Assembly: GCF_900167015.1 (NCBI RefSeq)
Contig: NZ_FUXX01000002.1
Location: 62,001-126,000 of the forward strand
From: Succinivibrio dextrinosolvens DSM 3072
GTDB taxonomy: Bacteria; Pseudomonadota; Gammaproteobacteria; Enterobacterales; Succinivibrionaceae
Direction of reading: 5' to 3'
Length of the DNA: 64,000 bases
In this document: piece after piece, positions 4,670 to 8,873 of the stretch
How the letters are laid out: every line of letters starts with the position of its first letter
Position numbering within the stretch: position 1 is the stretch's first letter
Made by a program: the position numbers and the translations under genes
Notes under the pieces: model-generated
Told to the model about the DNA's origin: nothing
Database searches by the model: none
Seen by the model: only the letters and a program-made list of their open reading frames with translations

Positions 4670-5830
4670 TTATTTTTTTAGTAAATGAATATCCTCAAGA
4701 TTTTTTAATGCACTGTTTAGAACTTCATCTGACTTGGCAAAGTGCAGTCGTATATAACGGTTCTCTTTCTCCTTGAAGAATGAAGAACCAGGCACTGCAC
4801 CGACTTTAATCTTATTGGCTAGATCAAGACAGAACTGATAGTCATCGTCGTAGCCAAAGGAGCTTATATCAACAAGCACAAAGTAGGTTCCCTGAGGTTC
4901 ATAGAAATCAAGGTTAAGCTTTTTAAGTCCACCGCAGAAAAGATTCTTTCTGTGGGTAAAGAGCGCTCTTACATCCTGGTAGTATGAATCAGGCAGAGTC
5001 AGGCCTTTGATGATAGCTTTCTGCAGAGGTGCTGCTGCACCGACTGTAAGAAAATCATGAACCTTTCTGATTCTGTCCATAACCTCAGGAGGAGCCGCTA
5101 CATAACCAAGTCTCCAGCCTGTAATAGAGTAGGTCTTAGAAAGAGAGTTACACATAATGGTTCTCTCTCTCATACCATCAAGTGATGCAAAGTAGGTGTG
5201 GGTGTAAGGCTCGAAAATGATATGCTCATATACCTCGTCGGTAATCACAAAGGCATTGTACTTCTCTACAAGCTTTGCAATGGTTAAAAGCTCATCACGG
5301 GTAAATACCTTACCGCTTGGATTTGATGGATTACACAGGATCAGTGCTTTTGCTCCCTGTGAAAATGCCTTCTCAAGCTCTTTCTCATCAAATGAGAAGT
5401 CAGGAGTATGCAGCGGTACATATATAGGCTCTGCTCCACAGAGAATTGCGTCGGCACCGTAATTCTCATAAAAAGGTGAGAAGATTGCTATCTTATCGCC
5501 TGGATTTAAGGTTGCCATAACTGCACTCATCATGGCTTCAGTACCGCCGCAGGTTATACAGAGCTCAGTGTCTGGATTATATCTGAGACCAGAGAAGTGC
5601 TCGATTTTAGCAGAAAGTGCCTCTCTGGTGTCCTGAGCTCCAAAGGTAATTGAATACTGATGAGGTCCGCTAAGTGCAATCTCTGATAGACTCTGTGTCA
5701 TTTCAAATGGAGGCGGATTATCAGGGAATCCCTGAGAGAGGTTGATAGCTCCGCAGCCATTGCAGATTCTTGTCATACGGCGTATGACCGAATCAGTAAA
5801 ATATTTTGTTCTTTCACTTAGAGTAATCAT
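4670..5830 (-). CDS. Class I/II PLP-dependent aminotransferase in the met uptake operon
   Basis: A 386-residue fold-type I aminotransferase. The PLP lysine lies in NSLSKTYSITGWRLGY (about residues 229-244), the phosphate-contact region in CGGTEAMMSAVMAT (about 93-106), the substrate-binding segment in CNPSNPSGKVFTRDEL, and the PLP-ring Asp in VITDEVYEHI. The N-terminal NLSQGFPDNPPP resembles methionine/aspartate aminotransferases of the YbdL/AspC-like groups. It is the last gene of metQ-metN-metI, 20 bases downstream of metI, so transamination of methionine or its oxoacid (4-methylthio-2-oxobutanoate), or use of methionine as amino donor, is a reasonable inference. Aspartate or aromatic substrates cannot be excluded. 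Confidence 0.85.
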   Translation of the reverse strand: MITLSERTKYFTDSVIRRMTRICNGCGAINLSQGFPDNPPPFEMTQSLSEIALSGPHQYSITFGAQDTREALSAKIEHFSGLRYNPDTELCITCGGTEAMMSAVMATLNPGDKIAIFSPFYENYGADAILCGAEPIYVPLHTPDFSFDEKELEKAFSQGAKALILCNPSNPSGKVFTRDELLTIAKLVEKYNAFVITDEVYEHIIFEPYTHTYFASLDGMRERTIMCNSLSKTYSITGWRLGYVAAPPEVMDRIRKVHDFLTVGAAAPLQKAIIKGLTLPDSYYQDVRALFTHRKNLFCGGLKKLNLDFYEPQGTYFVLVDISSFGYDDDYQFCLDLANKIKVGAVPGSSFFKEKENRYIRLHFAKSDEVLNSALKNLEDIHLLKK

Positions 5831-5850: not shown

Positions 5851-6528
5851 TTAGTGGGTCAGCAGTTTTGCAATTCTGTCACCGGTTAGCTGTGCTAACT
5901 GTACGATAACAACCAGTACCACAATAGTAAAGATCATTACACCGGTTTCATATCGATAGTAACCATACTGGATCGCAAGGTTACCGATACCGCCGCCACC
6001 GACCATACCAGCCATTGCTGAGCAGCCGATAAGATTGATGAAGGTTATGGTGATACCTCTGACAATTGCTGGTGCCGCCTCAACCAGAAGAACATTTCTG
6101 ATAATAAGAGAATGAGAGGCTCCTGTTGCAATTGCAGCTTCAATTACACCTGCATCAACTTCCTTTAAGGCACTCTCAACCAGTCTTGCAAAGAAGACAA
6201 TGGCTGCGATTGATAAAGGTACAGATGCTGCAATCGGACCGATTTTGGTTCCCACCAGGATAAAGGTTAGAGGCAGTGAGAATACCACCAGAATAATAAA
6301 TGGTATGGAGCGGATAATGTTGATAAACGCTGATACTGTTTTATTTAGACTGATGGTCTTTTCAAAAAATGTCTTACCTGAGGTCAGGTATAGAACAAAG
6401 CCAAGTGCAAGACCGAAAATAAGACTTAATGAAAATGATATTCCGATCATCAGAGCGGTTTCATAGATGGACTTTAAAAACTCGTTCTGAAGAATATTTA
6501 TAGTTGATTCCAGTAACTGACTGCTCAT
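5851..6528 (-). CDS. metI: Methionine ABC transporter permease MetI
   Basis: A 225-residue inner-membrane permease of the methionine importer with about five hydrophobic segments. The EAA loop that contacts the ATPase is seen as EAAIATGASHSLIIRNVLL (about residues 129-147). Its start is three bases after the metN stop, so it is translated with metN. MetI works as a dimer with two MetN subunits and receives substrate from MetQ. Length is close to E. coli MetI (217). Confidence 0.93.
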   Translation of the reverse strand: MSSQLLESTINILQNEFLKSIYETALMIGISFSLSLIFGLALGFVLYLTSGKTFFEKTISLNKTVSAFINIIRSIPFIILVVFSLPLTFILVGTKIGPIAASVPLSIAAIVFFARLVESALKEVDAGVIEAAIATGASHSLIIRNVLLVEAAPAIVRGITITFINLIGCSAMAGMVGGGGIGNLAIQYGYYRYETGVMIFTIVVLVVIVQLAQLTGDRIAKLLTH

Positions 6529-6531
6529 TTT

Positions 6532-7542
6532 TTACTCCGCATCCAATCTGCTTATGAAGGTCTTTCTGTGCAGATAGCTGATTACAGACTCTTTTTCTTT
6601 TTCATCTCTGGTACGCAGAGAAATCAGAAGTCTTCCTATAGGTTTATCCTGCACGTACTCAATGTTGCCTTCGATAATTGATAAATCTGTGTTTAAGAAC
6701 TTTCTTGATACATCTGAAATAACAGGATCAAAAGCTCCCTCTTCCTTGTAGGTGATCATGTAAAGATCTTTTTCCTGCTCTAACACCTTCTTAGGTACAG
6801 CCTTTTTGTAATCACTGCTGATAAGAGCCTTGGCTGCCTCTGACTGTGGAGTCGCAAACAGGGTGTAGGAAGGTGCAACCTCAACAAGACGCCCCTTTTC
6901 CATTACTGCTATTCTGTCAAACAGAGATTTTGCAACCTCCATCTGATGTGTGATGAACAGAATGGTGATTGGATAGTGATTCTTAATGTTACGCAGTGTC
7001 TGAATCACTTCCTTGGTGTTGTCAGGGTCGAGTGCAGAGGTTGCCTCATCACATAGAAGGATCTGTGGATTGTTTGCTAGAGCGCGGGCAATAGCCACAC
7101 GCTGCTTCTGACCGCCTGATAATGATGGCGGAAATAATTCCGCCTTATCTGCAAGTCCTACCAGCTCTAAAAGCTCAGGAACTCTTTTCTGGATTTCCTT
7201 AACTGGAGTGCTGGAAGCTTTAAGGGCAAAAGCAATATTGTCATAGACTGTAGCATTAGATATCAGGTTGAAATGCTGAAAGATCATGCCGATGTTTAGT
7301 CGTAGGTTTCTAAGCTTCTGTCCGCTGTAGTTTACGATGTTTTCCCCATTGATATACACATTACCTGAGGTTGGCTTCTGCAGCAGGTTAACTGTACGAA
7401 CCAGTGTTGATTTACCTGCTCCAGATGCTCCTACTATTCCGAAGAACTCGCCTTTGTTAATGGTTAGATTAACGCGGTCAACTGCTGTATATTCAGCGTC
7501 GGTATGCGAGAACTTAACACTTAGATTTTCGAATCTGATCAT
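6532..7542 (-). CDS. metN: Methionine ABC transporter ATPase MetN
   Basis: A 336-residue ATPase with Walker A GASGAGKST (about residues 37-45), signature LSGGQKQRVAIARAL, Walker B ILLCDEATSALD and the switch histidine in LFITHQME. The C-terminal ~90 residues, after about 245, form the NIL/ACT-like domain that in E. coli MetN binds cytoplasmic methionine and inhibits transport (trans-inhibition). The regulatory domain therefore appears retained. It lies between metQ (40-base gap) and metI. Confidence 0.94.
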   Translation of the reverse strand: MIRFENLSVKFSHTDAEYTAVDRVNLTINKGEFFGIVGASGAGKSTLVRTVNLLQKPTSGNVYINGENIVNYSGQKLRNLRLNIGMIFQHFNLISNATVYDNIAFALKASSTPVKEIQKRVPELLELVGLADKAELFPPSLSGGQKQRVAIARALANNPQILLCDEATSALDPDNTKEVIQTLRNIKNHYPITILFITHQMEVAKSLFDRIAVMEKGRLVEVAPSYTLFATPQSEAAKALISSDYKKAVPKKVLEQEKDLYMITYKEEGAFDPVISDVSRKFLNTDLSIIEGNIEYVQDKPIGRLLISLRTRDEKEKESVISYLHRKTFISRLDAE

Positions 7543-7582: not shown

Positions 7583-8434
7583 TTAGTTTGCAGGCCACCA
7601 CTCTGGTTTAGCAAAATCCCTGTAAGTAGGATCTGCATTTACAGATGAGGTAAATTCACGGCTTGCAACTGCATCCTTTAAGAAGGCTCCAACGGTGTTT
7701 ACACGATCACTCTGTACTGTAACCACAAGCTTGATTGGTTCAGATACCTTCTCCTTTGCCAGTGCCTTGTCAAATGGCAGTTTTGCCTCATATGCATAGT
7801 TGCCAGGAACTAAAGCAAGGTCTGTTGAATCAAGTGAACGTGGCAGCTGAGCAGCTTCCATTGGCACGAAGTTTAAGTGCTTAGGGTTCTTGTCGATATC
7901 AGCAATAGATGCCTTGAGATCATCCTTGTCGGCCTTAAGGGTGATAATGCCTGCATCACGGGCGAATCTTAAAGCACGTGACAGGTTTACCGCATCGTTA
8001 GGCAGAGCAACCAAAGCTCCATCTCTAAGCTCATCAAGAGATTTAACCTTCTCTGAGAAAGCAAATAAGCCTAGGGTTGGTACGTTGATAACCTCATCAA
8101 GCTTTAAGCCCTGATTCTCAACAATTGCCTTAAGGTAGATTGAGTGCTGGAACAGATTGGCATCGATTTCACCTGCATCCAGTGCTGAATCAGGCTGTAC
8201 CCAGTCAGAAAACTCAACAAAATCCAGTTTGTGACCGCGGCTTTCAACAACCTTTGTCAGATGGTTTTTCAGCAGATCCTTGTAAGGACCTGGTACTACA
8301 CCGACTTTGATGTGCTCTGGGACAGTATCAGCCTTTGCTGATTTGCTGCCCTCATCATTGCAGGCGGTTACGGTTAAAGCTAAAAATGCTGATAAAACAG
8401 TAAGTAGGATATTTTTCTTTGATAATTTTGACAT
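7583..8434 (-). CDS. metQ: Methionine-binding lipoprotein MetQ
   Basis: A 283-residue substrate-binding lipoprotein of the NlpA family. The N-terminus has lysines, a hydrophobic stretch and a lipobox-like TVTAC with the acylated cysteine at about residue 25. IKVGVVPGPY and the LDAGEIDANLFQH segment are typical of MetQ. It binds methionine outside the inner membrane and delivers it to MetI. Its Shine-Dalgarno sequence, CCGGAG (8447-8442), 7 bases from the ATG, is almost fully complementary to a segment of the upstream leader ORF, so its translation is probably regulated (see the regulatory entry). Confidence 0.94.
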   Translation of the reverse strand: MSKLSKKNILLTVLSAFLALTVTACNDEGSKSAKADTVPEHIKVGVVPGPYKDLLKNHLTKVVESRGHKLDFVEFSDWVQPDSALDAGEIDANLFQHSIYLKAIVENQGLKLDEVINVPTLGLFAFSEKVKSLDELRDGALVALPNDAVNLSRALRFARDAGIITLKADKDDLKASIADIDKNPKHLNFVPMEAAQLPRSLDSTDLALVPGNYAYEAKLPFDKALAKEKVSEPIKLVVTVQSDRVNTVGAFLKDAVASREFTSSVNADPTYRDFAKPEWWPAN

Positions 8435-8440
8435 AATAAA

Positions 8441-8553
8441 ACTCCGGACAGCTTTTGCGCTGTTAAAAATAATTACTAAAAAATAATGGAAAATTTCTGT
8501 GAGATTAGTGTGCTACATGCACATACACATACAGTCAGAGGTGCTGTCGGAGT
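8441..8553 (-). promoter_or_regulatory. Predicted SD-sequestering switch between Cys/Met leader ORF and metQ
   Basis: In the minus-strand transcript, ACTCCGACAGC (8553-8543, leader codons 25-28) can pair with GCTGTCCGGAGT (8452-8441) over 11 bp with one bulged C. The second segment contains the whole metQ Shine-Dalgarno sequence. A competing local hairpin is ACAGC (8463-8459), loop GCAAAA, GCTGT (8452-8448); it uses the same GCTGT but leaves CCGGAG free. The two structures are mutually exclusive. A ribosome held at the Cys/Met codons (8533-8516) would cover or come very near the anti-SD segment. The sequences are seen directly; the switching model is inference. Confidence 0.65.
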
Positions 8554-8626
8554 ATTTGTTTAAGGTAATTCTTCTGTCAGATAAGAAGAGAGCTTCTTTC
8601 TGAAGATCTTGCTGATTCTTTTTCAT
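8513..8626 (-). CDS. 37-residue leader peptide ending CMCMCM
   Basis: A short ORF upstream of metQ begins ATG at 8626 after a good Shine-Dalgarno sequence (AAAAGGAATATT ATG) and ends with codons TGT ATG TGT ATG TGC ATG TAG. The peptide starts MKKNQQDLQK and ends DCMCMCM. Six alternating Cys and Met codons directly before the stop, in front of a methionine-importer operon, are the hallmark of a ribosome-stalling leader that senses charged tRNA-Cys and tRNA-Met. A small hairpin (TGTGC, loop ATGTA, GCACA) overlaps the last codons and the stop. The peptide is too short and unusual to be an enzyme. An alternative is a nascent metal- or thiol-sensing peptide, since Cys/Met alternation can bind soft metals. 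Confidence 0.72.
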   Translation of the reverse strand: MKKNQQDLQKEALFLSDRRITLNKYSDSTSDCMCMCM

Positions 8627-8733
8627 AATATTCCTTTTATTTTCTATTTTTAGGATTGTTTTTTTAGTATCTTTCGATGTTGTTATTCTTATCTTTAAAA
8701 TCTCTTTTGGCTAATACTAATTTCTAATTATCG

Positions 8734-8762
8734 GTTATAACTAAAAACTAATACTCAGTTAA
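8734..8762 (-). promoter_or_regulatory. Candidate sigma-70 promoter of metQNI
   Basis: On the minus strand TTAACT (8762-8757) and TATAAC (8739-8734) are separated by 17 bases, matching 4/6 and 5/6 of the consensus. This would give a leader of about 100 bases before the short ORF. Repeated ACTAAT-like words surround it (8711-8755). No clear MetJ box (AGACGTCT repeats) was seen. Confidence 0.4.
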
Positions 8763-8848
8763 CTTACTGAATATAAAGAATATTACTTAATTGAATTATC
8801 AGACGAGAGGCGATTTTCTCTGAAAAAAAATTGCCCTGATAAAGAAAA

Positions 8849-8873
8849 TGCAGGTCTGGAAATCCAGCCTGCA
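8849..8873 (-). terminator. Terminator of ntrBC
   Basis: Arms TGCAGG (8849-8854) with CCTGCA (8868-8873) and CTGG (8856-8859) with CCAG (8864-8867), with one bulged T, form a stable hairpin 37 bases after the ntrC stop. Read on the minus strand it is followed by TTTTC. Confidence 0.6.

Follow-up and report, generated by a model that had tools for sequence, protein, structure and literature searches.

The trp, his, leu, ilv, thr and phe operons of Proteobacteria are controlled by amino-acid attenuators with leader peptides. Genes for methionine transport and synthesis are the targets of MetJ repression, SAM riboswitches and methionine T-boxes. Any attenuator that reads methionine codons is complicated by the fact that methionine shortage also limits initiation. 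Cysteine leaders have been predicted for cys operons of Mycobacterium and other Actinobacteria (PMC1262725), and the mycobacterial polycysteine leaders have been shown to respond to cysteine (Canestrari et al. 2020, as cited in PMC9094748 and PMC9031893). The accessible part of a broad survey of attenuators contains no methionine leader (PMC2965389). No description of a leader peptide for methionine, or for cysteine and methionine together, was found in the literature searched, from which subscription papers were mostly missing, and this absence is not proof of novelty; the preliminary description of the present locus, which knew of no such leader, holds within the same limit.

The locus lies in a window of 64,000 nucleotides from the rumen bacterium Succinivibrio dextrinosolvens; the leader, the operon and the conserved and pairing segments described here are on its minus strand. 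A leader ORF of 37 codons followed by TAG (8513-8626), the product of which is read from the window sequence as MKKNQQDLQKEALFLSDRRITLNKYSDSTSDCMCMCM, ends with TGT ATG TGT ATG TGC ATG TAG, the three Cys-Met pairs at 8516-8533 being the putative control codons. An ORF with a Shine-Dalgarno (SD) sequence and a Cys/Met tail had been claimed in front of metQ, and its exact position, its tail and the AGGA at 8632-8635 were all verified. The leader stop codon is 78 nt from the start of metQ (7583-8434), which encodes an NlpA-family substrate-binding lipoprotein (PF03180, 1.1e-59; MetQ families). metN (6532-7542; ABC ATPase with a methionine-type NIL domain, TIGR02314 and PF09383), metI (5851-6528; permease by family match) and a gene for a methionine aminotransferase-like aminotransferase (4670-5830; family match) follow, the last of these closing the apparent operon. 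The leader has no match in Rfam, Pfam or NCBIfam.

Like the classic attenuators, this leader is a short ORF with a ribosome-binding site upstream of the operon (ORF and SD are conserved; translation is inferred), and its control codons are near the stop codon and correspond to the amino acids of the operon, Cys/Met before metQ and Cys only before a Cys operon. A sister Cys leader in genome G006 also shares, by computation, the alternative terminator folding, which is not evident for the window leader. In contrast to the classic attenuators, the window leader mixes two amino acids, precedes genes of uptake rather than synthesis and has no robust intrinsic terminator in its clade. With the mycobacterial polycysteine leaders it has in common Cys codons in the final part of a short ORF, the lack of an obvious terminator and a sulphur amino-acid target. 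Those leaders belong to leaderless mRNAs and contain Cys only, whereas the window leader has an SD and added Met codons and precedes a methionine importer. It fails to qualify as a polycysteine leader on two points: Cys and Met alternate instead of forming a Cys run before the stop, and the ORF does not begin a leaderless message, as the SD and upstream sequence are conserved, although the start site is unmapped. The Cys run is present in the sister leader found before the Cys operon, and this Succinivibrio poly-Cys leader is very similar to the mycobacterial ones.

A terminator-like hairpin at about 8845-8873 after the upstream ntrC, read directly from the sequence, and a block conserved across genomes at 8708-8739 (TATAACCGATAATTAGAAATTAGTATTAGCC), the probable operator/promoter, suggest by inference that the leader and metQNI form a separate transcript starting upstream of the leader. 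No start site has been mapped; a start downstream of 8626 is unlikely because this block, the most conserved non-coding stretch, lies upstream of the leader. The block is TATAAC-rich. TATAG-N7-CTATA-like sites are found upstream of metQ paralogues (L056 and L057), and these are perhaps sites of a LysR-type regulator.

The same leader was observed before metQ in four further genomes of the genus, labelled Succinivibrio and Succinatimonas, with tails CMCMCM or CMCMCMCM. Over the five genomes, the only indels in the leader ORF are of 18, 3 and 6 nt, all in frame, those in the adjoining linker to metQ are of 1, 2 and 4 nt, and the ribosome-binding site AGGAATATTATG is identical. A search of 19 genomes of the genus located the 18-mer TGYATGTGYATGTGYATG in five of them, solely at the metQ leader, and a reversed control pattern gave one match. 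In 2.4 Mb (about 69%) of the relative G014, 3591 small ORFs before a gene were ranked by Cys plus Met in their last 15 residues; the metQ leader came first (8) and the leader of a second paralogue, metQ2, came second (7). The leader of the window is more than chance, because the 18-mer is restricted to it, indels in it are only in frame and its counterpart in G014 has the top rank. The tail being a 6-nt repeat (TGTATG) in three or four copies, a functionless ORF arising by chance over a hexanucleotide microsatellite has to be considered. Against this are the in-frame indels, the invariant ribosome-binding site and the ranking, and also the finding, which would be sufficient for refutation, that other nucleotide patterns encode the Cys/Met tails before distant metQ and metQ2 genes, so that hardly any credence is left for it.

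Nine more-distant metQ orthologues (48-64% identity) have leaders with unalignable bodies, mostly with Cys/Met-rich ends: SCLSMSCLCMRMTF, SCRCPLSCMCLCMRMPL, RAVMCCMRSCMRMPR, SCSLSSSMAMSMRMSH, LSCSMRMPVLA, MCSLSMRMPVLA and MCTFLKINMCM. Two tails are poorer, SLKRMPVLA in G005 (one Met, one Cys) and QTMPSYIRMYS in G020 (two Met, no Cys). A separate leader also precedes metQ2, reading SMCCSCHMCCSPMSM in the genome of the window, SMCTCHSCTLMCM in G014 and SACLSLCMCMPMCMR in G006. In G014, the gene after metQ2 (L074; L057 in the window's genome) encodes a methionine sulphoxide reductase, an arrangement that suggests a function of metQ2 in uptake of oxidised methionine. Several further metQ orthologues within the genus (G001, G009, G012 and G015) showed no recognisable leader, and none was found at metQ of the GC-rich genus g2 or, in Enterobacteriaceae and most Firmicutes, at metQ-like genes. 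The preliminary description had proposed looking for the Cys/Met codons upstream of metQ in relatives and would have been refuted by a missing ORF or tail in close ones. Both are found there, and the codons extend farther than proposed, to distant orthologues, to metQ2 and to the leader of the Cys operon. Its strictly alternating Cys/Met run is confined to the five-genome S. dextrinosolvens clade, the residues being mixed elsewhere.

Third in the G014 ranking (6, all Cys) is a leader with the tail YCCCCCC before an operon that encodes a methyltransferase of the LCM family, a cystathionine gamma-lyase/homocysteine desulfhydrase-type enzyme and a cysteine-synthase-like enzyme, plausibly a methionine-to-cysteine route. 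Eight genomes carry this poly-Cys leader, its tails being CCCCCC, CCNCCC, CCCQR, CCICR and CCCCR. In the genome studied here, only its beginning falls inside the window: the first two codons (ATG ACA) of MTNL...LYCCNCCC occupy positions 6-1 of the minus strand, and the remainder is beyond the left edge (contig C44:61890-62006). In the upstream regions of the Cys operon (L301-L308), the stretch from the poly-Cys leader to the first gene contains a conserved hairpin, AAAGCAGAAAGCTTT / TGAGCAGAAAGCTCA, both arms of which show changes. The last 14 residues were compared between non-redundant sets of 15 metQ leaders and 5 Cys-operon leaders. The metQ tails, enriched in both residues, contain 16.7% Cys and 22.4% Met, and the Cys-operon tails 30% Cys and 0% Met; the difference in Met (47/210 versus 0/70) has a Fisher P of 4.5e-7, which is approximate as the sequences are related. 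Ahead of these 14 residues, the metQ leaders have 6 Cys and 0 Met in 400 residues. Because metQ tails carry Cys and Met, and Cys-operon tails Cys without Met, the control codons are judged from sequence comparison to follow the pathway: the importer feeding both amino acids has both, and the Cys-making operon has Cys.

This distribution bears on two further explanations. Cys-Met repeats can bind soft metals, and the leader might be a functional small protein, such as a Cu(I)- or thiol-binding peptide, rather than a cis-regulator. This is very improbable for an ORF that is always directly upstream of metQ, whose body is not conserved between species and matches no Pfam or NCBIfam family, and whose Cys-only version precedes the Cys operon. 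Alternatively, a peptide with a Cys-Met or C-M-R-M core might itself sense methionine, SAM, metal or thiol state and stall within the exit tunnel, without empty codons being the signal. Such a nascent-peptide or metal sensor is still alive because C-M-R-M is found repeatedly, both among metQ1 leaders and in the metQ leaders of three Clostridia, and has an invariant codon in the former: CGA encodes the Arg before Met in all 9 metQ1 leaders having it (L006, L009 and L012-L018), compared with 7.7% of Arg codons in G014. Preservation of one Arg codon rather than of the residue alone is, however, not expected of an arrest peptide. Moreover, the spacing to the stop codon is not fixed, upstream residues are not conserved, and the window clade has no Arg. 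Cys and Met are free to vary in their order and number, and the Cys leader, with Cys alone to match the pathway, goes with the Cys operon; these two facts make arrest by the nascent chain less likely, and we regard it as improbable. The metal or thiol alternative of the preliminary description is likewise not favoured, as the poly-Cys sister leader sits before a cysteine-synthesis operon.

The leader is quite probably a ribosome-stalling leader-peptide attenuator of metQNI, although its translation, the stalling and the response to starvation are inferred. The ribosome would translate the 37-codon leader and, at a low supply of charged tRNA-Cys or tRNA-Met, stall in the Cys/Met run. The stalled ribosome would alter the fold or exposure of the surrounding RNA, leading to expression of metQNI. 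When both charged tRNAs are plentiful, the ribosome would reach the stop codon and metQNI would be held down. A shortage of either amino acid would be sufficient, as in an OR gate; such logic fits an organism that imports methionine and appears able to turn methionine into cysteine. The earlier reading of the leader as a sensor of two sulphur amino acids gains support from the mixed tails observed before metQ and metQ2 and the Cys-only leader before the Cys operon. Of the other regulators of such target genes, MetJ was detected in none of 57 family genomes (E. coli as positive control), and no riboswitch or T-box was detected, there being no Rfam match at gathering score other than tRNA. Full-length MetE had no match in the window's genome (G000), which has seven MetQ-family genes; dependence on imported methionine is therefore plausible but not shown.

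The step after stalling is also inferred; Rho-dependent termination in the linker is favoured, with masking of the metQ SD a close second. The fold computed for the G006 Cys leader has four segments, with a hairpin that covers the stop codon, an alternative pairing and a terminator GCCGTC...GACGGCTTTTTT. The terminator is predicted to form with a probability of 1.00 if the leader end is free, 0.94 if a ribosome occupies the stop codon and 0.24 if the ribosome is stalled at Cys44/45. By computation, this leader is a textbook attenuator. No robust intrinsic terminator was found before metQ in the window clade (G000). A small hairpin, TGTGC-ATGTA-GCACA (8509-8523), spans the leader stop codon, is invariant in five genomes and is a candidate protector hairpin. 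Leader-end hairpins are stronger than shuffles over 19 leaders pooled (summed z -6.7); the window leader alone, with a z of 0.37, is not exceptional. The 78-nt linker (8435-8512) is G-poor with C over G, at the 96th percentile of G014 upstream regions (the metQ2 leader of the window's genome is at the 98th), and Rho output stays possible because Rho sites have this composition. ATGCGAATGCC-N-GGCA was tried as a shared RNA motif and rejected: its non-metQ matches in a family scan are inside genes (a pyruvate formate-lyase-like gene has at least four of them on its antisense strand) and are attributed to chance on account of this location.

In translation attenuation of the erm/cat type, a stalled ribosome unmasks the SD of the next gene. 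The same could occur here, although the signal would be tRNA charging instead of an antibiotic and the evidence for a masking helix is weak. The leader segment ACTCCGACAGC (8543-8553) is complementary to the metQ SD region GCTGTCCGGAGT (8441-8452), and would mask it unless a ribosome stalls at the first Cys/Met codons. The computed helix has 11 bp and one bulge, with 89% of cells paired over five genomes and one two-sided (compensatory) change in five sequences, but half of it is lost in G003 and it is not above a column-shuffle control. With a ribosome at the first Cys, the predicted unpaired probability of the metQ SD rises from 0.07 to 0.26 in G000 (Cys32), from 0.34 to 0.52 in G003 and from 0.27 to 0.50 in G004. 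The unmasking is modest, and in G000 little changes once the ribosome is past Cys32. There is no rise in G010, just 0.23 to 0.29-0.31 in G014 and none in the majority of distant leaders, and a conserved thermodynamic SD switch was not seen over all leaders. SD masking, which is a sub-case of the attenuator and does not exclude it, is accordingly possible but doubtful. The sensor is claimed with some confidence, and Rho termination and SD masking both remain possible as its output, which is left undecided because there is no robust terminator, SD unmasking is modest and the helix is no better than its shuffle control.

In three related Clostridia (L314, L317 and L318; Tyzzerella record), a conserved leader before metQ, such as MRTDFTRLENMHMCMRMLRTKDHCVSRCCMQKV, with the consensus ..MCMRMLRTKD.CV.R.CM.K, is followed by an intrinsic terminator. 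Pairing of its segment CCAAGGAT is possible immediately ahead of the terminator, with a small computed effect. The Arg before Met is encoded by CGA in two of the three leaders. No Pfam, NCBIfam or Rfam match was found for this leader, and convergence and transfer are both possible. A sulphur amino-acid leader regulon in Succinivibrio, with Cys/Met leaders on importers and a Cys-only leader on the methionine-to-cysteine operon, to which the C-M-R-M leader of Clostridia is related or convergent, can be put forward only tentatively. If the Clostridial C-M-R-M leader is indeed a related or convergent one, dual Cys and Met attenuators would be a widespread class.

Leader-peptide attenuation is classic, and what is new, within the literature searched, is a leader reading Met, or Cys and Met jointly. 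It raises the question of how a Met-sensing leader works when initiation is limited by the same shortage. The paired Cys-only leader provides a built-in control in the same organisms. If confirmed, the leader would be a two-input ribosome sensor in place of the MetJ of enteric bacteria and the riboswitches or T-boxes of Firmicutes.
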